The notes beneath the pieces were generated by a model, which saw only the letters and a program-made list of their open reading frames with translations, made no database searches and was not told the DNA's origin. Below are positions 12,310 to 23,567 of a stretch of DNA of 24,185 nucleotides, piece by piece; position 1 is the stretch's first letter, and each line of letters opens with the position of its first letter. Source of the DNA: a virus; IMG/VR virus record IMGVR_UViG_3300025096_000133, positions 1-24,185 of that record, one strand, 5' to 3'. The position numbers were made by a program, and so were the translations under genes.

Positions 12310-12509
12310 GTAAAAAACCAGTTATTTATAGGGTATACACCCGCAAGGGTCAGTTCCACCATTGTTACAGTTCGGCCTTGGAAGGGGCATTGGGCTGGGC
12401 AATTGATTGCGCCAAAGTAGTTGGCGGCTCCGTTAGGGAGGTTACTCCCGAGGGAGTGGAAACAGAGGTATTCTCCTGTTCTAAGGAAGCAGATGTTAGC
12501 ACTACTTAA
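12306..12509 (+). CDS. Small hypothetical protein (67 aa)
   Basis: This 67-residue protein is not recognised. It begins MSKKPVIYRVYTRKGQFHH and looks like a compact alpha/beta fold without signal peptide or membrane segment. The start overlaps the preceding stop as ATGA, and its 3' end overlaps the i-spanin start by 17 nt, so it is embedded in a tightly coupled operon leading into the lysis genes. Confidence 0.65.
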   Translation: MSKKPVIYRVYTRKGQFHHCYSSALEGALGWAIDCAKVVGGSVREVTPEGVETEVFSCSKEADVSTT

Positions 12510-12747
12510 ATCCCTTATAAAATCTTTAGAATTATTTTTAAATCTTAAAAACAAGAGATTCTATTATGATCTTCACCGTGAACAAAGAGAACGAGAAGAT
12601 GAAATCCTCCAAGAAATTGAAAAGCTTAGGGGTAGCGGGGATGGCAATGATGCTGATCGCGCTGACCTCTTGCGGAAGCGACTCACCACCGAGCGTGAGC
12701 AATTTGAACATATATCAGCCTTCTACTCTGAGACTCAGGATGAATAG
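12493..12747 (+). CDS. Putative i-spanin (Rz-like)
   Basis: This 84-residue protein begins at an ATG with AAGGA 5 nt upstream, one of the few clear Shine-Dalgarno sequences here. Residues 1-16 (MLALLKSLIKSLELFL) are hydrophobic to amphipathic. They are followed by a long charged helix or coiled coil, REQREREDEILQEIEKLR, and a GSGDGNDADRADLLRKRL region of the kind often seen in short Rz-like proteins. The decisive evidence is architecture: a lipoprotein gene with a perfect lipobox is nested in the +1 frame, exactly as in Rz/Rz1 pairs. The membrane anchor is short and contains Lys and Glu, so inner-membrane insertion is less certain than usual. Its role would be outer-membrane disruption at the last step of lysis. 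Confidence 0.7.
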   Translation: MLALLKSLIKSLELFLNLKNKRFYYDLHREQREREDEILQEIEKLRGSGDGNDADRADLLRKRLTTEREQFEHISAFYSETQDE

Positions 12748-12850
12748 CCCCATTCAAACAAAGGATGGAACCTATACCCCCCAAACTGATGAGGTTTGGC
12801 ACTCTGATGCTCGTTTTAGGAGGCTTGAAAGAGAAATTTATTCCAAATGA
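12599..12850 (+). CDS. Putative o-spanin lipoprotein (Rz1-like)
   Basis: This 83-residue protein starts MKSSKKLKSLG, with a hydrophobic core AGMAMMLIAL and the lipobox LTSC (lipidated Cys near residue 25), and then a small mature domain with several prolines and GTYTPQTDEVWHSD. The start lies inside the i-spanin gene in the +1 frame; 149 nt of it overlap the i-spanin and the rest extends beyond. An ATG at 12566 would add 11 residues ahead of the signal peptide and is less likely. It would sit in the outer membrane's inner leaflet and bind the i-spanin across the periplasm. The next gene begins at an ATGA overlap. Confidence 0.8.
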   Translation: MKSSKKLKSLGVAGMAMMLIALTSCGSDSPPSVSNLNIYQPSTLRLRMNSPIQTKDGTYTPQTDEVWHSDARFRRLEREIYSK

Positions 12851-13893
12851 AACAAATAATCATCCCCTCCAAAGAGGAGGTTGAAGCCGAAATAATTAAA
12901 GCAAGAGAAATTCTTGAAAAATATGGTATTGATAACGCACACCCAGAACTCCCAGTTGACTGGGCTGCATATTTTGAGCGGGCTCAGAAGCAGTTAAACA
13001 AGTCGGGTAGTCGTCAACACAGTGGGACTCTCGTATTGACTGATTGGTATCCCCTAAACAGAACCCTCTTTTTGGACAGTCATGTGCAGTTAAAGGGATC
13101 GGTGAGAGCGGGGCATCATCTAGGATCTTCCTGTGGTTTTCGCGCTGAAGAAGATTTTGAGGGCGACTGGATTCTCAGCTGGAAACAACCAAACAAAAGG
13201 TCATTTTATAGCAACTTTGGTGCGGGGATTCGTAATATACACATACAATCACAGCACGGTCTCAACGGTGTTTGTTTTCGTGGTGCCCAACAGTCAGCGG
13301 GGGTAGACAATTTGGTGGTGCGCGGATTTGGTGAGAATGCTGTGGGGGTCAAGTTAGGGGGAGATACTTACTCTGTCCGAGATGTATTTAGTGATGCAGC
13401 TAAAGGTGGAGAGGATTCTGTTGCGAGAGAGGGTGCAGTTGCATTTGAGCTTGGTTCAAGCAGGGTTTATTCTCTTAGGTTGGAGAATATTACCTCTCAT
13501 AATTGTGGAACAGGACTCCAGTGGGGGGATGCTCACCAAATAACGATTGAAAATTTTGAGACAGAGCTGACCACGCAGCCCCTTGTGTGCACATGGGATG
13601 CGAGAGGAATAAATATTAGAAACGGTTGCTTCCGTCACACAAAAAACCTTCTTAAACTAGAGAAAGTGCGTTGGCCTTCCGATTCCCGAATAAAAATCGA
13701 TGGGATGATGGCAGATAACTCACCTGGGGAAATACTCCTTCCCAATGGAGATCAGGTAATCGTTCCCAAAAACTTTGATCTGGTAATTGAGGGGGACAGG
13801 ACAAAAGGGTTGAGGGTGGTAGATCTTAAGAAGATGCGCGAATCTTACTTAGATAGCATTAGTGCTGGCGTAGGCATCGGCACCTCCGCGTAA
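12847..13893 (+). CDS. Right-handed parallel beta-helix protein (pectin-lyase-like fold)
   Basis: This 348-residue protein has no signal peptide. It has a helical N-terminus (about 1-55), then from about 60 to 310 repeating short beta strands with pectin-lyase-fold rhythm, such as GIRNIHIQSQHGLNGVCF, VDNLVVRGFGENAVGVKL, SLRLENITSHNCGTGLQW and ITIENFETE. No catalytic residues can be assigned. Phage proteins of this fold are often tailspikes or depolymerases, but its position directly after the o-spanin (ATGA overlap) and away from the tail operon leaves the role open. The C-terminus ends GVGIGTSA, the same motif that repeats in the long fibre, so it may be a fibre-related or truncated virion protein. 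The HMA-like gene follows after 7 nt. Confidence 0.75.
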   Translation: MKQIIIPSKEEVEAEIIKAREILEKYGIDNAHPELPVDWAAYFERAQKQLNKSGSRQHSGTLVLTDWYPLNRTLFLDSHVQLKGSVRAGHHLGSSCGFRAEEDFEGDWILSWKQPNKRSFYSNFGAGIRNIHIQSQHGLNGVCFRGAQQSAGVDNLVVRGFGENAVGVKLGGDTYSVRDVFSDAAKGGEDSVAREGAVAFELGSSRVYSLRLENITSHNCGTGLQWGDAHQITIENFETELTTQPLVCTWDARGINIRNGCFRHTKNLLKLEKVRWPSDSRIKIDGMMADNSPGEILLPNGDQVIVPKNFDLVIEGDRTKGLRVVDLKKMRESYLDSISAGVGIGTSA

Positions 13894-13900
13894 ATTAGTT

Positions 13901-14209
13901 ATGAAAAAATTATTTATACTTCTCATGTTGGGGCTGGCCCCTTTGATTAAGGCCGACGAGACACGCTACAGAGCTGTTATGTCGGGGGTCACCTGAGCGG
14001 ATTGCCAGAATGATGTTCGTCGAGCATTAAAAACTACATTTGAAGCTGTTAATATAAACATTATTAAAAGTGACAAGCCTCGTTTCCAAGAGGTGACCTT
14101 CACCGCTTCTGATAAAAGCATTACGAGGAGAGCCATTGAGGCAGCAATGGGAAAAGATAAAGACCGATATCAAGTTTGGAGATTAATAAAAAAGGTGGGG
14201 AAAAAATAG
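13901..14209 (+). CDS. Secreted HMA/MerP-like protein with in-frame TGA, candidate selenoprotein
   Basis: From the ATG at 13901 a frame of 102 codons ends at TAG 14207-14209, interrupted only by TGA at 13994-13996 (codon 32). Residues 1-18 are a signal peptide (MKKLFILLMLGLAPLIKA, cleavage before DE). The text around the TGA is MSGVT-TGA-ADC, then a helix QNDVRRALKTTF, a strand VNINII, a strand FQEVTFTASD and a helix ITRRAIEAAMG: the beta-alpha-beta-beta-alpha-beta order of heavy-metal-associated domains. The TGA falls exactly on the first cysteine of the GxTCxxC metal motif, and the second (Cys35) is intact. Other genes here end with TGA, so the code is not globally reassigned. A small GAU-GUUC-GUC hairpin lies about 16 nt after the TGA, too weak to call a SECIS. 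Alternatives are a nonsense mutation or a sequence error. Confidence 0.62.
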
Positions 14210-14282
14210 CGACAGCGATGAATACGTATTCACATGTAGATAATAAAAATAAGCCCTTATATTCTCTTTTATGACACAGAAT

Positions 14283-14288
14283 GTGTAA
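14283..14288 (+). promoter_or_regulatory. GTGTAA element upstream of the beta-barrel gene
   Basis: The context AATGTGTAAAATTAA lies 43 nt before the start, just upstream of a TTGACA box. It is the most distant of the copies of this motif. Confidence 0.35.
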
Positions 14289-14295
14289 AATTAAT

Positions 14296-14325
14296 TTGAC
14301 AATCGCTTTAAACCGTTAATAATAC
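14296..14325 (+). promoter_or_regulatory. Sigma70-like promoter, probably giving a leaderless mRNA
   Basis: TTGACA (14296-14301), 18 nt, TAATAC (14320-14325). The ATG of the beta-barrel gene follows exactly 6 nt after the -10 box, so the expected transcription start coincides with the start codon. No Shine-Dalgarno is present. Confidence 0.6.
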
Positions 14326-14331
14326 AAAAAT

Positions 14332-15024
14332 ATGAAGACACTATTATTTAGTCTTGCAACCATGTTGGGCGTTACCCTTGGTAACGCAGGTGTTACTATC
14401 ACTAATCTCTTGGAGAGTGTTTCTCCTGAGCTTGGCGTTAACTATAGCAATTTATCGACTCATCGTGGCGTAGCCACAAGAGAAGATTCTCTTGCTTTTT
14501 CTGCCCTTGTGGGAATTCCCGTTGAGGGAGCGCATCTTTCTGTGGGTATTGACCTTCACGATGTTGATGGCGATACAGAGAAAGATTGGTCTGTTGCTTA
14601 TGCTCGTCCAATTGAGATTTTTGGTCAGAGCTTGGGCGCTAGAGCGCATCTCAAGAGGATTGATTCCTCTAATGGGGGTTGGGAAGAGGTTGGTCTTGCG
14701 CTAACTTATGCCCACGATATTGCTGACCTCACGGCTACCGTGTGGCACGAAGCTGATTCGTCTGGCCCTTATGGGGTGGAAGTGATGGTTTCTCGCGATT
14801 TCGCTACTCCCGTGGCGAATCTTACTATTACTCCATTTGCGGCAGTTAATATTGCTGACGAGTATGATGGGGTAGAAGCTGGGGTCGCAGCCACCTATGA
14901 GCTTAATGATAGTCTCTCTCTCTTTGTGAAGGCGGCTTATCATGACAATGATCTTGATTCTTCTAGTGCTTATGCTTTAGAGCATGATTGGTCGGTTGGT
15001 GGAGGGGTTTCTTTCAGGTTCTAA
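14332..15024 (+). CDS. Secreted outer-membrane beta-barrel protein
   Basis: This 230-residue protein has a signal peptide (about 1-19, MKTLLFSLATMLGVTLGNA). The mature part consists of alternating amphipathic strands with polar turns, for example ARAHLKRIDS, EVGLALTYAHD, LTATVWHEAD, GVEVMVSRDF, LTITPFAAVN, GVEAGVAATYEL and LSLFVKAAYHDND. The last strand WSVGGGVSFRF ends in the C-terminal Phe recognised by the BAM machinery. It resembles 8-10-stranded porin-like or OmpW/opacity-type barrels, but no specific family is claimed. It has its own promoter and is followed by a strong terminator, so it is a monocistronic unit. In phages such proteins can alter the host surface, for instance to block superinfection (inference). 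Confidence 0.78.
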   Translation: MKTLLFSLATMLGVTLGNAGVTITNLLESVSPELGVNYSNLSTHRGVATREDSLAFSALVGIPVEGAHLSVGIDLHDVDGDTEKDWSVAYARPIEIFGQSLGARAHLKRIDSSNGGWEEVGLALTYAHDIADLTATVWHEADSSGPYGVEVMVSRDFATPVANLTITPFAAVNIADEYDGVEAGVAATYELNDSLSLFVKAAYHDNDLDSSSAYALEHDWSVGGGVSFRF

Positions 15025-15101: not shown

Positions 15102-15428
15102 ATGGAACCTGAAAAGTCTATAATAAAAGAGTTTCTTGGCGGGGGGTGGCTTGTTCCTTTAATCGGGGCTGCTGCTATGTTTGCTAGGCTTCTGACTGGC
15201 ACTAACCACCTTACTGTTAAGGAGCAGTTTAAAAAGATTGCAATCGCTGCAATTGCCGCAGGAATTGCTTGGTTTATCCTAGAACAAACAGAGGTCTCAT
15301 CCCTTATGAAGGCAGTAACGTATGGTATAATTGGTGCAGTAAGTCCAGAAGTAATCGGAGGAATTGTTTGTTTGGCTAAAAAGTTTGAAAAGCACCCGTT
15401 AAAATTCCTTAAAAAGAAATCTAAATAA
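15102..15428 (+). CDS. Holin
   Basis: This 108-residue membrane protein has about three hydrophobic segments (roughly 14-32, 43-60 and 70-92), the glycine-rich start GGGWLVPLIGAAAMFARLL and a strongly basic tail KKFEKHPLKFLKKKSK. The pattern fits class I, LydA-like holins. Its stop overlaps the start of the CHAP endolysin (TAATG), a classic lysis-cassette arrangement. It would form the inner-membrane lesions that release the endolysin. No Shine-Dalgarno is seen. Confidence 0.82.
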   Translation: MEPEKSIIKEFLGGGWLVPLIGAAAMFARLLTGTNHLTVKEQFKKIAIAAIAAGIAWFILEQTEVSSLMKAVTYGIIGAVSPEVIGGIVCLAKKFEKHPLKFLKKKSK

Positions 15429-16048
15429 TGAATTTTAAAGGTAAAAGAGAGGTAGTAAAGGCCGTCCAAAGACTTTTGGGTGTTTCTAGTGATGGAGCAG
15501 ACGGTCCAGTAACTTGGAACGCTATACTGGCCAAATTATCCACCAAGGAACCCGCGATTTCTGGGAGCAGCATACCCGAGAAGATGGTATCGTTGGCCCG
15601 TGGAGAGATTGGTGTTTCCGAGGTAGATGGAACTAATTGTGGCCCCAAGGTAGACGAATACAAGGCGGCGACATGGCTCGACGCCGATAAAGGATGGCCT
15701 TGGTGCGCGGCTTTCATCTGCTGGCTTGTAAGGGAGGCTATAGAGGGTGAGGATGTGAAATTCTCAAGACCCAGAACAGCGGGGGCATGGGACTTTGAAA
15801 ACTGGGCTAAACAACAAGCCGCGAATGGAGTGGGGCTTCGCAAACCCACCAACGAGGACATTAATGCTGGAGACATTATAGTTTTTACTTTTTCTCATAT
15901 CGCTATCGCTATCGCAGACGTAGATTCAAGGGGCTATGTGAAAACCATTGAGGGTAATACTAATGGAGCAGGGAGCCGAGAGGGTGGTTCTGTGCTAGAA
16001 AAAAACAGACATGTTTCTAAGATTAGAAGCAGAATAAGAATTCTGTAG
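15428..16048 (+). CDS. Endolysin with CHAP amidase/peptidase domain
   Basis: This 206-residue protein has no signal peptide. Residues about 5-40 look like a short peptidoglycan-binding repeat (VVKAVQRLLGV, DGADGPVTWNAI). A CHAP domain spans about 50-206, with the nucleophile Cys93 in GWPWCAAFICW, His157 in FTFSHIAIA and the acid/Asn pair in IEGNTN (175-178); DINAGDIIVF is the usual strand before the histidine. It would cut peptide or amide bonds in peptidoglycan. It is translationally coupled to the holin. Its release through the holin fits the absence of a signal sequence. Confidence 0.92.
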   Translation: MNFKGKREVVKAVQRLLGVSSDGADGPVTWNAILAKLSTKEPAISGSSIPEKMVSLARGEIGVSEVDGTNCGPKVDEYKAATWLDADKGWPWCAAFICWLVREAIEGEDVKFSRPRTAGAWDFENWAKQQAANGVGLRKPTNEDINAGDIIVFTFSHIAIAIADVDSRGYVKTIEGNTNGAGSREGGSVLEKNRHVSKIRSRIRIL

Positions 16049-17407: not shown

Positions 17408-17941
17408 ATGATGTCAGATAAAGCGCGGGGTTTGTCGGGTTCTAAGCATGTAGCCCACACCCAAAAACTAATGGATGAATCCACAGAGAGGTATCACGGC
17501 TCTTGTTTATCTGCTGGTTTGACGATCAAGAAAGCCACCAAAAAACAAGACATCGGTCATGTTGATTTCATAATAAACGGTGAAACTGTAGATTTAAAAG
17601 GATTAAAAAACTCCACCCGAGAGGGCAAAATTCTCCTAGAGTTCTTCAATGTCCGAGGAAAGACGGGGTGGTGCAATGAAAAGGGCACTCCCTTGTGGGT
17701 AGCTTTTGATTTGGGGGCTTTTTTCCTCCATGTAAAAAACATCGACCTCTACAACCTCGCAAAAGAAAAATGCGACTTAAGGGACACGGTTACCCGAGTA
17801 GATGAGTGTCTCTATAAAGGATATAGACGCAAGGGACGAAAAGATTTAATGTCTATGGTTCTTCTTAAAGATGTCTTGGAGAGCTGCGAGCATTGGTTCT
17901 TACCCTATGCTAAATACCAAATACCTCTTGAAGAGGTTTAG
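17408..17941 (+). CDS. Possible PD-(D/E)XK-type nuclease
   Basis: This 177-residue soluble protein has the core HVDFIINGETVDLKGLK (about 51-67), which fits the beta hairpin of PD-(D/E)XK nucleases, with Asp53 and Asp62-x-Lys64 as candidate metal and catalytic residues. A strand ILLEFFNVRGKTGW and a helix follow, as in such folds. The upstream helix would supply the conserved Glu, which is not obvious. The function is therefore a fold-level guess. A second ATG directly follows the first, so the start may be 17411. The gene is a single unit between a terminator and the convergent LamG gene, whose stop overlaps it by 4 bp. Confidence 0.6.
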   Translation: MMSDKARGLSGSKHVAHTQKLMDESTERYHGSCLSAGLTIKKATKKQDIGHVDFIINGETVDLKGLKNSTREGKILLEFFNVRGKTGWCNEKGTPLWVAFDLGAFFLHVKNIDLYNLAKEKCDLRDTVTRVDECLYKGYRRKGRKDLMSMVLLKDVLESCEHWFLPYAKYQIPLEEV

Positions 17942-19317
17942 GGAGCGTCTGCTACTATGTCGGAGGCAGTCATGTTTTCCATTAGTCCTGCATATCCGTT
18001 GACTTGTTTAACGGAGACGTTGTCGAGGTAGAGAGTTGAATCACCGCCAAGGCTTTGGAAGACCTGAAAAGAGCTACTAGAGCCTGTTGCAGTTGCTGTG
18101 GTGTAGAAGGTAATATTTGTCCAAGCACCCGTTACTGCTAGGTTGTGAGACGGATCAAGGTCACTACCGTCTCCATCTTTGAGCTTCATAATCCACCGAT
18201 ATGTGGGACCAGCGGCTATCTCCAAGTAATAATAGAACGACACCTTATACACTGTCCCAGCGACCAATGAAAACGTATCGCTCTTGAGTCCCTCTGATCC
18301 TGCGTTGGCAACGCACTTCCTTGAATACGTTCCAGAATATACTTGTTCCGTGCTACGTTCGTTAGTGGTTGGAGAACCAAGGTCGTTCCAATTATCGTCA
18401 AGCTCCATGTCCCCGTTGAGGACCAATTCGCTCCCTAGAGTAGGATTTACCTGATCTCCGATTAAGCCGTTTCCAGCAACATTTCCGTCGTCTAAAGGTC
18501 CGTCGCCCATTCTCCACCATGCGGTTGGGCTGTATGGGGCGAGAGATTGGGGTGTCCCGCCATTGTAGATGGCGAGGACTTGGGCGGCAGAAAGGGCTCT
18601 GTCGAAGATTGCAACTTCGTCGATCTTTCCGTCGAGAAACTGGGTGGGGTGGGGATGGCTTATTGCCCCAATAAGAATATTGGTGTCGGGATTCGTCGCA
18701 GCGTCTTGCGTGTAGGACATGGTGTCCCTAGAAACCCCGTCGATATAGTAGCTCGCAGTTCCACCGTCCGCGACGAGGCAGATGTGGAGCCATGTGTCTA
18801 CCGAAACGTAAGCGCTAATATCTGTTGTTCTTTTGAAGGAATCTTGGACGCCGAACTTGGCGTTGGTGCCGTTAAACCCGCAGTAGAATCTGTGGCTGTT
18901 GCTCGCCCCACATAGTTGGTCTCCATTAAAATTGTCCATCTTGCACCAGAAACACATCGTGGCATTCGTGTTGATGAAGTCGGGTTGGTAGTTAGTGTCC
19001 ACATAATCATCAGCGCCATCAAAAACGACACTATAGGTATCCCACTTATAATCTCTAAAATCTCCCGTTCCCTGATAACTAAACCCTGCATTATAGGGTT
19101 CCAAAAACAATCCCGTTGCGTTGGGTTCTGTGGGTGTCCAGCTTGTATAAAGGGAATTAACATTGCGATTATATTCTCTTATTAAATGCTGGGAATCCCA
19201 CTCTCCTCCCTGACCACTCAACAAATACATACCAGTGACCTCACCCCTGAAAGTGGCCCAATCTGGCGATGTGACCGCAGTGCTGGAATGTATTTGTCCT
19301 AATAGGTCAGTAGGCAT
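17938..19317 (-). CDS. LamG-domain virion-type protein, short paralogue
   Basis: This 459-residue protein has three parts. The N-terminal region (about 1-90) begins DLLGQIHSST and continues SPDWATFRGEVTGMYLLSG; it is shared nearly identically with the 882-aa paralogue. A LamG/concanavalin-like domain (about 92-248) includes DGADDYVDTNY, WLHICLVADGG, YYIDGV and GKIDEVAIFDRALSAAQ. A linker follows (YNGGTPQSL, then AWWRMGDG; about 247-272), and then a carbohydrate-binding-like jelly roll (about 290-445) ending TLYLDNVSVKQ. It ends NMTASDIVADAP, the same point at which the longer paralogue continues into further LamG domains. No signal peptide is present. The likely role is an appendage or adhesion protein of the virion; this is inferred from the modules and from LamG use in the tail protein L. 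Confidence 0.8.
   Translation of the reverse strand: MPTDLLGQIHSSTAVTSPDWATFRGEVTGMYLLSGQGGEWDSQHLIREYNRNVNSLYTSWTPTEPNATGLFLEPYNAGFSYQGTGDFRDYKWDTYSVVFDGADDYVDTNYQPDFINTNATMCFWCKMDNFNGDQLCGASNSHRFYCGFNGTNAKFGVQDSFKRTTDISAYVSVDTWLHICLVADGGTASYYIDGVSRDTMSYTQDAATNPDTNILIGAISHPHPTQFLDGKIDEVAIFDRALSAAQVLAIYNGGTPQSLAPYSPTAWWRMGDGPLDDGNVAGNGLIGDQVNPTLGSELVLNGDMELDDNWNDLGSPTTNERSTEQVYSGTYSRKCVANAGSEGLKSDTFSLVAGTVYKVSFYYYLEIAAGPTYRWIMKLKDGDGSDLDPSHNLAVTGAWTNITFYTTATATGSSSSFQVFQSLGGDSTLYLDNVSVKQVNGYAGLMENMTASDIVADAP
18500..18573. repeat. 74-bp LamG linker repeat, copy 1
   Basis: This segment encodes the end of a LamG domain plus the YNGGTP/WWRMGDG linker. It is very similar at the DNA level to 20318-20391 and 21392-21465, sharing the perfect core GGTGTCCCGCCATTGTAGAT. 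Confidence 0.85.
19040..19131. repeat. 92-bp perfect direct repeat, copy 1
   Basis: Identical over 92 bp to 21956-22047, inside the shared N-terminal region of the two LamG paralogues. Flanking sequence differs at scattered sites, which points to recent duplication or gene conversion. Confidence 0.95.
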
Positions 19318-19322
19318 TTTGA

Positions 19323-19571
19323 TTAGTGTGGGTCAGGCGCTGTCCAATCAGGACCACTCATGATTTCAAGTATCTCTGCATGGGTATAGGTAGTAATCCC
19401 ATTAAATACCGCAGGCCTTTCGCCTTCGTATTTTAAGACAACCCTATCTGCTCCCTCTCCCTCTACGGAATGGCGCAAGGTGTCGAAGGATGACTCCATC
19501 GCCGCGTCCATCATCCCCGAGGTTACGTTAGAAAAGGGAAGGGTCATGTAATGTCTGTTATTATAATTCAT
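19323..19571 (-). CDS. Hypothetical protein (82 aa) between the LamG genes
   Basis: Not recognised. This 82-residue protein begins MNYNNRHYMTLPFSN, has a helical SGMMDAAMESSFDTLRHSV and an EILEIMSGPDW near the end, with no signal or membrane segment. It lies 5 nt upstream of the short LamG gene and 13 nt downstream of the long one, so all three are probably one transcript. Its size and position suggest an accessory or attachment factor for the LamG proteins, but nothing in the sequence shows this. Confidence 0.65.
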   Translation of the reverse strand: MNYNNRHYMTLPFSNVTSGMMDAAMESSFDTLRHSVEGEGADRVVLKYEGERPAVFNGITTYTHAEILEIMSGPDWTAPDPH

Positions 19572-19584
19572 ATTTTTTTTATTT

Positions 19585-22233
19585 TTAAGGTGTATCCGCT
19601 CTTAAAGCGGCGTCATTAATGATAACTCCGTCAGTTGCCCCCCGAATTACGGCTGGGTTGGCAATGGAGGTAGTGTTGATTGTAACGGTTTGCCCACTGG
19701 TCGCCGTGAAGCTGGGTGCTCCTTTGGTGGCCAAGGCGAAGTTGATATCTAGCACTGGGGTTTCTGTTGGTGCCGCTTGGTTGGCGACCGCTGAGTTCCA
19801 CACCCGTGCTCTCTGCACGGAGCCGTTAAACGGGAGACTCCCTCCCGCGTTGTTAGTGCCAACCTCAAGAGGGGCCGAACTATTGTATAGGGCGGTTGCG
19901 ACACAAGTCACATCGGTGCCCAGTTGGACCCCATTCACATAGAATCGAACATCCAACCCGTTTCGCATCACCATGAGGTCGGCGGTCGCTCCAGCAGCCA
20001 ACACATTTGCGGCAGTCGAAGTATAGGTATTAGTGGCAGACCCATTAAAAGACAAAGTTAGTTCCAGTTTTCCGTCCGTTCGTAAATACAGATACCACGC
20101 ACGTTGGTTGCCCGTTGAGTTATACTTTGAGATTAGCATCAAGGAAGCGGAAGGAGTCCAATCCGCCGTCGTCACACCTTTCGCTTCCAACGTGAAGTCA
20201 GTGAACCCGTCCAAGTCGGCGGCATCAGGGACACTGGCGTAATTTCCCGCAACCGCAGGCAAAAACAAAGCATTTGCGTCGGTTGCAGCAGCGTCATGAA
20301 GGATGCGATAACAATCGCCGTCTCCCATTCTCCACCATGAGACGGGGCTGTATGAGGCGAGAGATTGGGGTGTCCCGCCATTGTAGATGGCCGTAATTTG
20401 TGCTGCCGACAGAGCCGAGTCCCAGACGGCTACCTCGTCGATGTTGCCGTCGAACGGGTAAGAGGATGATGAATATGCCCCGATAATTGTTTTGAGACCC
20501 GCAAAGTCCATGTCCCCAGCGGAAGGGAACGTGCCAGTGGTGCCAAGGGCAGTCTGGTCAACCCCGTCTACATACATCTTGCTGTTTGCCTCGCTACCAA
20601 CCGAATAAACGCAGACGATATGATGCCAACTCGCAGTGTCGGTGAATGCAGCAATGCGTTCCCACCCACCACCATTGAGCTTGAATCGCAGGTGGTTGCT
20701 AGCCAACGCTACGTCGATTTCACCATAAGCAGCCGAGAAAGGGCCAATTTCAAACATCCCATCGTCTCCGCTAGTGACACCCGCTTTGAACCACATCGAG
20801 ACCGTCAGACTCCCAGCGTAATTGTCTCCCAGAGCATCCCCAAGAGCTGTTCCTGCGTCCACATACTCATCAACGCCATCGAAAAGAACACTATAGACAT
20901 CCCATTTATTACTTAGGGGTGTGTCTGCTACTATGTCGGAGGCTTCCATGTTGATCATGCCTCCCTGATTTCCGTTATAGTCTTTGACTGATACGTTGGT
21001 AATAGAGCCTACAAAGTCGGAGTAAGCCTCAAAGTAAGCCTTACCGCCAACATTTGTGAAAAAAGTATATTTTTTGTGACCCACGCTAGTCTCAACCATA
21101 TCAAAGATTACCTGAGATCCGTTGACCCAATACTTAAGTCCTTCGCCGTTAGTGGAAACTAAATCAAATTCTAGAACACAGGCTTTATTTATTGTGTGGA
21201 CATGATCTTGTATCAACGAGGTAAAACTTGCTTGGGTTCCATCACAAGAGGCTACTCCTCCAGCGATACTCCACCCCGCCGCCTTTGTCCAATCTGTGTC
21301 AGAGGCGAAATTCCCGTTCGTTATCAGTTCGCTCCCCAAAGTCAGGTTCATCTGATCTCCGATTATTTTGTCACCCCCATCATCTAAAAGCCCGTCTCCC
21401 ATTCTCCACCATGCGAGGGGGCTGTATGGGGTTAAGGATTCGGGTGTCCCGCCATTGTAGATAGCTCTGATTTGCACTGCCGACAGAGCAGAATCAAAAA
21501 TGGTCACTTCGTCCATGAGTCCCTTGAACTCCCGTGCCGTGGAGTGGTTCCAAGTGCCAATCCGCATATTGGTTGTGTCACTGGGAGGACGACTAGTATC
21601 TGCCGCCGTAGTGTCGAGACTTCCGTCGATGTAAAATTTGTAATTCGTTCCGTCCCATGTCCACACGACATGATGCCATGTAGCGTCTGTTATGACCCCC
21701 ACGGAGGAAGATTGCGTAGACTCATCAATCGCTCCAGCAACTTGCCCATTAGTCCGAACCCACAGTGCGTATCCCTTTCTACCGCTGCCTTCATCCGATT
21801 TATCTACGATGCGTTTGGAATTATCATCCGCAGAAACGTCATCAATTTTAATCCACGCGGAAATGGTCCCGTTGGAATTGTAGAGTCGTAAGGCTCCCGC
21901 TTGACTGCCCAGCTCAACGTAATCATCTACCCCATCAAAATCTAAACTATAAGTGTCCCACTTATAATCTCTAAAATCTCCCGTTCCCTGATAACTAAAC
22001 CCTGCATTATAGGGTTCCAAAAACAATCCCGTTGCGTTGGGTTCTGTTGGCGTCCAGCTCTTATACAAAGAGTTAATGTTTCTATTGTATTCTCTTATTA
22101 GGTGTTGGGAACCCCACTCCCCCCCTTGGCCGCTTAATAAATACATTCCAGTGACCTCACCCCTGAAAGTAGCCCAATCTGGTGACGTAGTGTCGGTGCT
22201 GGAATGGATTTGTCCTAATAAGTCGTTGGGCAT
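19585..22233 (-). CDS. Multi-LamG virion-type protein, long paralogue
   Basis: This 882-residue mosaic protein has, in order: the shared N-terminal region (about 1-90); LamG 1 (about 95-253); linker YNGGTPESL/AWWRMGDG (about 254-278); a jelly-roll, carbohydrate-binding-like domain (about 295-420, ending ITNVSVKDYNG); the ASDIVADTP junction; LamG 2 (about 445-612); a second linker (about 613-638); and LamG 3 (about 655-830) with a C-terminal tail ending ALRADTP. LamG signatures include DFDGVDDYVELG, ATWHHVVWTWDGTNYKFYIDG and DEVTIFDSALSAVQ. The ATG at 22233 is preceded 11 nt upstream by a GTGTAA element, and it leads a three-gene operon. It is probably a surface adhesion or decoration protein that binds glycans (inference). 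Confidence 0.82.
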   Translation of the reverse strand: MPNDLLGQIHSSTDTTSPDWATFRGEVTGMYLLSGQGGEWGSQHLIREYNRNINSLYKSWTPTEPNATGLFLEPYNAGFSYQGTGDFRDYKWDTYSLDFDGVDDYVELGSQAGALRLYNSNGTISAWIKIDDVSADDNSKRIVDKSDEGSGRKGYALWVRTNGQVAGAIDESTQSSSVGVITDATWHHVVWTWDGTNYKFYIDGSLDTTAADTSRPPSDTTNMRIGTWNHSTAREFKGLMDEVTIFDSALSAVQIRAIYNGGTPESLTPYSPLAWWRMGDGLLDDGGDKIIGDQMNLTLGSELITNGNFASDTDWTKAAGWSIAGGVASCDGTQASFTSLIQDHVHTINKACVLEFDLVSTNGEGLKYWVNGSQVIFDMVETSVGHKKYTFFTNVGGKAYFEAYSDFVGSITNVSVKDYNGNQGGMINMEASDIVADTPLSNKWDVYSVLFDGVDEYVDAGTALGDALGDNYAGSLTVSMWFKAGVTSGDDGMFEIGPFSAAYGEIDVALASNHLRFKLNGGGWERIAAFTDTASWHHIVCVYSVGSEANSKMYVDGVDQTALGTTGTFPSAGDMDFAGLKTIIGAYSSSSYPFDGNIDEVAVWDSALSAAQITAIYNGGTPQSLASYSPVSWWRMGDGDCYRILHDAAATDANALFLPAVAGNYASVPDAADLDGFTDFTLEAKGVTTADWTPSASLMLISKYNSTGNQRAWYLYLRTDGKLELTLSFNGSATNTYTSTAANVLAAGATADLMVMRNGLDVRFYVNGVQLGTDVTCVATALYNSSAPLEVGTNNAGGSLPFNGSVQRARVWNSAVANQAAPTETPVLDINFALATKGAPSFTATSGQTVTINTTSIANPAVIRGATDGVIINDAALRADTP
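20318..20391. repeat. 74-bp LamG linker repeat, copy 2
   Basis: Marks the junction between LamG 2 and LamG 3 of the 882-aa protein; nearly identical to copies at 18500 and 21392. Confidence 0.85.
21392..21465. repeat. 74-bp LamG linker repeat, copy 3
   Basis: Marks the end of LamG 1 of the 882-aa protein. It shares the core with the other two copies, with most differences in the middle third. Confidence 0.85.
21956..22047. repeat. 92-bp perfect direct repeat, copy 2
   Basis: Identical to 19040-19131. The two copies are 2916 bp apart in the same orientation, so recombination between them would delete one LamG gene and the 82-aa gene. Confidence 0.95.
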
Positions 22234-23490: not shown

Positions 23491-23567
23491 GGGTGCGTAG
23501 TCCAACTGGCAGAGACAACGGACTTAAAATCCGTCCAGTGCGGGTTCGAATCCCGCCGCGCCTACCA
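23491..23567 (+). tRNA. tRNA-Leu (anticodon UAA) with short variable loop and encoded CCA
   Basis: A full cloverleaf can be drawn: acceptor GGGTGCG with CGCGCCT (two G-U pairs), D arm GTC..GAC, anticodon stem ACGGA/TCCGT with loop CTTAAAA (anticodon TAA, reading UUA), a 5-nt variable loop CCAGT, T arm GCGGG-TTCGAAT-CCCGC, discriminator A and an encoded CCA. Bacterial tRNA-Leu normally has a long variable arm, so this class I shape is atypical. The gene starts on the base after the stop of the upstream CDS, suggesting it is processed from that transcript. Confidence 0.9.

Follow-up and report, generated by a model that had tools for sequence, protein, structure and literature searches.

A phage gene with a conserved in-frame TGA as a candidate selenoprotein gene of the heavy-metal-associated type

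Which described systems come closest to a selenocysteine (Sec)-containing, HMA-like protein encoded by a phage? HMA-like selenoproteins are known from cells, among them the NF041115 proteins with a UxxU motif, MerP, which the GOS survey counts among Sec proteins (PMC2398784), a UxxC cation ATPase and a mercuric transport protein, and none of these is from a phage (PMC13188914, PMC9312934, PMC2398784). In the literature searched, selenoproteins have been catalogued for cells, whereas all that has been noted for phages is tRNA-Sec genes. Such genes occur in Basilisk-like phages (PMC6145125) and huge phages (PMC10747093), which likewise tie a phage to selenocysteine, but via tRNA genes; the portions of these two papers that were available report no selenoprotein gene with a SECIS. 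The 24,185 nucleotides analysed here (the window; IMG/VR virus record IMGVR_UViG_3300025096_000133, positions 1 to 24,185) come from a marine virus of bacteria and differ from those phages in that they contain a putative selenoprotein gene, while a search for tRNA-Sec gave none. No earlier phage selenoprotein was found in the literature searched, outside of which most subscription journals and preprints lie, and priority is not proven.

The candidate gene (13901-14209, plus strand) would encode a probably exported HMA-like protein of 102 residues. An earlier note on this DNA had described a frame broken by a single internal TGA at codon 32 (13994-13996), flanked as SGVT-TGA-ADC and then continuing for 70 codons to a TAG, and on re-reading the window both the frame and the flanks are correct. 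The frame begins with a probable signal peptide, MKKLFILLMLGLAPLIKA (13901-13954, plus strand), recognized by inspection, which corresponds to a low-confidence N-terminus in the structure model; a hydrophobic N-terminus is common to the homologues. The TGA belongs to a GVT-U-ADC motif and occupies an alignment column that invariantly holds TGA or Cys. The second ligand cysteine of UxxC, C35 (TGC at 14003-14005), is invariant in alignments A5 and A8, and Y23 and G29 are the other invariant columns. A random open stretch of 70 codons has p ~0.02 by base composition alone, and conservation of the TGA in other contigs and in a more distant phage copy, L015, is stronger evidence than this. A downstream internal start was dropped, since the sequence just behind the TGA has no in-frame ATG, GTG or TTG at which a separate gene could begin. 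Sequencing error was dropped as the source of the TGA because many independent contigs carry it, and code reassignment because TGA acts as a stop elsewhere in the window, where it is the ordinary terminator of five other genes. The frame is neither an error nor a product of decay.

The same TGA is found in seven near-identical IMG/VR contigs from different samples. L015 (IMGVR_UViG_3300048880_000430), reached via synteny with the neighbouring beta-helix gene, shares 67% protein identity and 78% DNA identity with the window copy and has the TGA in the same place. Decayed sequence downstream of the TGA in relatives would count against Sec; between the window and L015, however, the NG86 estimates are dN 0.18 and dS 0.67 after the TGA (dN/dS ~0.27) and dN 0.16 and dS 0.82 before it, and across the whole frame the three codon positions have 20/10/38 substitutions. 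After the TGA, 23 amino acid changes were observed, and 23 or fewer arose in 0.7% of 20,000 neutral simulations. As judged from these substitutions, purifying selection acts downstream of the TGA between the phage copies. It is hardly credible that the gene is a pseudogene in which the TGA is a nonsense mutation, followed by decaying sequence or permitting only a 31-residue peptide: TGA is a normal terminator in the phage and the protein is known from sequence alone, but the TGA and a constrained downstream protein are kept in L015 and in three more phages, and a TGA stands at the ligand-Cys position in 33 of 33 bacterial loci described below.

Those three phages came from a DNA pattern combining codon and hairpin (SECIS) features, run on 2.9 million IMG/VR contigs. 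It matched 11 contigs, all members of the family (eight already known plus L245, L246 and L247), and a systematic search for phage selenoproteins is therefore feasible. In total the TGA form is present in 12 phage contigs representing five lineages, so that the search for other phage contigs keeping the TGA, proposed in the earlier note, yielded four further lineages. A degenerate protein alignment of two phage copies had produced no further contigs from IMG/VR, since its Cys codon pattern cannot match TGA. There was no match to the protein in the cultured phages searched, nor in a genome-contig scan with exact peptides, and the T4-like phage region, searched as DNA, returned diffuse short matches only. 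L129 and L133, with frames full of stops, were rejected as chance matches of a first TGA pattern.

The 196.9-kb contig L245 is from a T4-like virus, with genes for terminase, sheath, family-B polymerase and a sigma factor. Its DUF1549/DUF1553 and DUF1501 genes are of kinds typical of Planctomycetes-Verrucomicrobia bacteria. One large gene of this virus, which we take to be a ribonucleotide reductase gene, has a counterpart of ~69% identity in a relative of the window phage. The 197-kb T4-like phage (IMGVR_UViG_3300030419_007641, L251-L260), in which a tmRNA and a sigma-70-type factor accompany the DUF1549/DUF1553 and DUF1501 genes, likely has a host in the Verrucomicrobia or Planctomycetes. 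L247 and the window have the outer-membrane protein (OMP), holin and endolysin genes in common, but in L247 the selenoprotein gene lies at another place. The copies in L245-L247 are all extended at the C-terminus, with NGEWHLLL or DGTWHLLL; the window copy has no such extension.

Homologues of the phage protein are found in bacteria. A profile of two phage proteins retrieved homologues from 7 of 388 Verrucomicrobiota genomes, all of them small exported proteins with G-x-x-C-x-x-C, and with a wider profile members turned up in 173 of the 289 genomes of one order, which also includes the MAG 'uncultured Verrucomicrobiales bacterium' (L146 = G017). Many bacterial members have one in-frame TGA, and in each of the 33 TGA-bearing Verrucomicrobiales loci fetched it is at the same codon (motif, for example, MTGVT-U-AGCK). 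In Cys members this position holds the first Cys of GxxCxxC; the homologues with Cys aligned to the TGA that would favour Sec were found as 39 distinct Verrucomicrobiota genes. Several bacterial TGA genes are also terminated by TGA, so the genetic code is unchanged. These exported Sec/Cys proteins (L149-L226) resemble the phage protein in length, in the hydrophobic signal-like N-terminus, in the G[VI][TV]-U/C-xxC site and in the position of the SECIS, and by tree they are its nearest relatives. Unlike the phage gene, the bacterial genes often adjoin ZnuA, or MnmH-like, cysteine desulfurase or tRNA-Sec genes. For this family, neither a curated name nor a matching NCBIfam model was found. Two bacterial members, L210 (G526:C333) and L211 (G421:C79), have tandem HMA domains, the second of which contains a further in-frame TGA, and are probable multi-Sec proteins. 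The Cys member L154 (G376:C16) retains the CGU loop and an MTGVT-x-GGCQ motif but little of the stem, and comes from a genome with no tRNA-Sec or SelB over the cut-off; it looks like a Sec-to-Cys reversion.

The weak hairpin with GU in its loop that had been noticed after the UGA is real. It spans 14012-14028 (plus strand), with stem GAUGUU/AGCAUU and loop CGUCG (14018-14022) containing the GU (14019-14020), and its identification as a bSECIS is based on covariation at third codon positions, on invariance of the GU and on its absence from Cys homologues. Counted from the U of UGA, positions 19-24 pair with 30-35 around loop 25-29, and G26-U27 is invariant. Two of the pairs join third codon positions: among 33 distinct sequences, pair 21-33 is CG in 21, UA in 11 and UG in one, and pair 24-30 is CG in 30 and UA in three, with no mismatch at either. 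Pairing is formed in 92.4% of cells as against 30-48% with slid partners, the covariation score was reached by none of 500 shuffles, and the bacterial sequences alone give the same picture. The GU is in the loop of 34/34 Sec genes and of 1/39 Cys genes, with 5.5 of the six pairs formed in the former and 2.2 in the 39 Cys homologues. The bacterial SECIS model (PMC13188914) specifies a loop of 3-9 nt with G in the first two positions, a stem of 4-16 bp, a distance of 16-37 nt from the UGA and an MFE of -7.5 or below. The phage hairpin agrees with this model in loop (CGUCG, G second), stem (6 bp) and spacing (21 nt), and only its free energy is borderline, at -7.0 to -7.6 kcal/mol depending on the length folded; that of L015 is -9.4. 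Single-sequence folding of the window gave a local fold no better than shuffles (z 1.1). A covariance model trained only on the bacterial sequences has one match in the window, 13994-14035, which starts exactly at the TGA; its E-value gives only rough support because, in a larger set, a short 20.6-bit chance match also appeared in an unrelated phage gene.

Are the bacteria with TGA genes able to make selenocysteine? A tRNA-Sec was counted only at 57 bits and 90 nt or more, because matches below ~57 bits resemble other tRNAs (several, with 47-52 bits, exceed the Rfam cut-off but measure only 82-90 nt). By this measure tRNA-Sec is present in 22/31 genomes with the TGA form and in 1/29 Cys-only genomes, the latter picked by score and not at random, and SelB is over the cut-off in 24/31 and 3/29, respectively. 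Either one is present in 28 of the 31 TGA genomes and in 3 of the 29 Cys-only genomes (Fisher p 3e-10, related genomes not being independent). The tRNA-Sec and the TGA gene share a contig in G463, G488, G469, G484 and G526, where they are within ~2-5 kb of each other. Neither tRNA-Sec nor SelB was found in three of the nine nearest bacterial genomes, the assemblies of which are likely incomplete. The Sec machinery sought as a check on the reading is present in most of the bacterial genomes that carry the TGA form, while the phage's own host is one that we infer. The window DNA and its OMP had no match in 75 genomes of the bacterial family, and the endolysin was rejected as a host marker, being ambiguous between Kapabacteria (60%) and Verrucomicrobiales (54%). 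No tRNA-Sec above the cut-off was found in related phages, and the phage would therefore depend on its host for decoding. Rfam found one tRNA and nothing else in the window; this tRNA-Leu (TAA) gene occupies 23491-23567, and a 3'-open ORF begins within it at 23493.

Stop-codon recoding occurs in phages, and homologues often have Cys at the position of the UGA, so one might suppose that the UGA is read as Trp, Cys or another residue through a changed code or plain readthrough. This is very unlikely: TGA ends other genes in the window, only TGA members have the hairpin with its invariant GU and covarying third positions, and the TGA form co-occurs with tRNA-Sec and SelB. The proposal that the TGA encodes Sec at the first ligand cysteine is supported by the conserved TGA, its replacement by Cys, the covarying SECIS and the Sec genes of the TGA bacteria, and the case for a virus-encoded selenoprotein, built on sequence comparison, is very well supported.

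The assignment to the HMA domains, also made in the earlier note, holds for motif and fold and for the Pfam scores of three of the four bacterial homologues tested, which pass the PF00403 gathering score of 24.8 with 26-32; the phage protein (17.1) and the L015 protein (16.3) score below it. AlphaFold2 predicts a ferredoxin-like HMA-type fold (pLDDT 86.6; E21-28 H33-47 E50-56 E62-69 H76-82 H84-89 E91-99) in which U32 lies just before helix 1, and the ligand motif GVT-U-ADC (residues 29-35) is between beta-1 and alpha-1 of the beta-alpha-beta-beta-alpha-beta fold. Structure comparison placed HMA domains (ZntA, Atx1, RAN1) at Z 8.0-8.5, among other ferredoxin-like proteins, and Foldseek alone ranked generic ferredoxin-like folds first. 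The NF041115 'UxxU' metal-binding (seleno)proteins likewise carry Sec at the first ligand position of an HMA-like domain, although the similarity is weak (E 0.013), they have two Sec residues where the phage protein has UxxC, and the score of 15.6 bits is far from the cut-off of 95. MerP (TIGR02052) is likewise an exported periplasmic HMA protein, with a GMTCxxC-type site, but the scores are 13.0 and 17.0 bits against a cut-off of 92.55; no mer genes were seen in the window. NF045683 (MerT_CopZ_Se) is likewise a heavy-metal transport selenoprotein with a CopZ-like part; unlike the phage protein it is a membrane fusion protein, and a bacterial homologue scores 13.6 against 375.

What would such a protein do? 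Motif, fold and gene neighbours suggest a periplasmic metal-binding role. The main rival on function, which we regard as possible but unlikely, is a selenoprotein with a redox role, such as a thiol/selenol reductase or a peroxidase-like protein, given that prokaryotic UxxC selenoproteins are mostly thought to be redox proteins (PMC9312934, PMC13188914) and that one bacterial neighbourhood contains Ni superoxide dismutase together with selenium genes. The HMA-type motif and fold speak instead for metal binding, as does a ZnuA zinc-uptake gene directly upstream, on the same strand, in 7/9 nearest bacterial loci (PF01297 E 1e-35 for L205). In one bacterial clade the family gene is adjoined by a cysteine-desulfurase-like gene and a gene with a rhodanese domain that we read as MnmH-like (2-selenouridine-synthase-like).

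The gene order reported earlier, with the selenoprotein gene between beta-helix/lysis surroundings and an outer-membrane-barrel gene, is borne out. Directly upstream, across a 7-nt gap, is a gene for a beta-helix (pectate-lyase-like) protein (12847-13893, plus strand; PF12708 E 7e-5, below cut-off). Downstream is an outer-membrane-barrel-like gene conserved in related phages (14332-15024, plus strand; MipA-like E 9e-4, below cut-off), followed by a holin (15102-15428) and a CHAP endolysin (15428-16048) on the plus strand, a late/lysis context. Farther upstream, an ORF with a hydrophobic start and a charged helix (12421-12747) overlaps a lipoprotein-type ORF in another frame (12566-12850), and the two look like an Rz/Rz1-type spanin pair. 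The segment from the lipoprotein to the barrel gene (12850-14332 in the window) is a variable slot in the window, L016, L057, L119 and L121-L127, holding beta-helix, dCMP-deaminase-type or selenoprotein genes, or nothing. The selenoprotein gene is absent from the nearby relatives L016, L057 and L073, and in other relatives the slot is empty or is taken by a dCMP-deaminase-type gene; the selenoprotein gene is thus optional cargo. Elsewhere in the window (17938-22233), two large LamG-like proteins have nearly identical N-termini (MPxDLLGQIHSST...), and their repeated blocks have matches, in mosaic order, in contigs L022 and L025.

Since only part of the phage group has the gene and the slot elsewhere holds other cargo or is empty, the gene could be viewed as a recently captured selfish hitchhiker with no role for the phage. 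We consider this improbable in the light of the purifying selection between phage copies and of their forming one clade across siphovirus-like and T4-like phages at different genome positions. The five phage copies form a single clade (100/99) nested in a bacterial Sec clade (100/99), whose members are Verrucomicrobiales mostly with small genomes and 39-54% GC, in a tree of a short family with many forks unresolved. Because the phage clade is nested, transfer from bacteria to phage is favoured and the reverse less likely, and the topology would fit one capture followed by spread among phages. Comparison of the sequences shows the conserved TGA, Sec/Cys replacement at a metal-ligand position and a covarying SECIS, as well as Sec genes in the bacteria carrying the family, a host origin and spread to at least five phage lineages.

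With high confidence, we view the gene as a phage-borne selenoprotein gene from a Verrucomicrobiales bacterium, decoded with host SelB and encoding an exported HMA-type protein that most likely binds a soft metal. After capture of the gene from such a bacterium, a ribosome of the infected cell would reach the UGA at 13994-13996, where host SelB with Sec-tRNA(Sec) would bind the hairpin at 14012-14028. Selenocysteine would be inserted and a ferredoxin-like, HMA-type domain exported, with a U-A-D-C site instead of CxxC. The selenol/thiol pair would most likely bind a soft metal ion in the periplasm, as part of zinc- or copper-type traffic, and the protein may act as a metal chaperone or scavenger during infection, to the presumed benefit of the phage.

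The Verrucomicrobiales family of Sec/Cys HMA-type proteins, with its clean SECIS contrast between Sec and Cys forms, is useful for studying Sec-Cys exchange. A phage selenoprotein gene is easily missed by standard gene callers. It is probable that this is the first phage-encoded selenoprotein family, derived from one capture from Verrucomicrobiales and exchanged between siphovirus-like and T4-like marine phages, and that it makes infection partly dependent on the Sec machinery and selenium of the host. A phage gene requiring host SelA, SelB, SelC and SelD and selenium would tie infection to a trace element.
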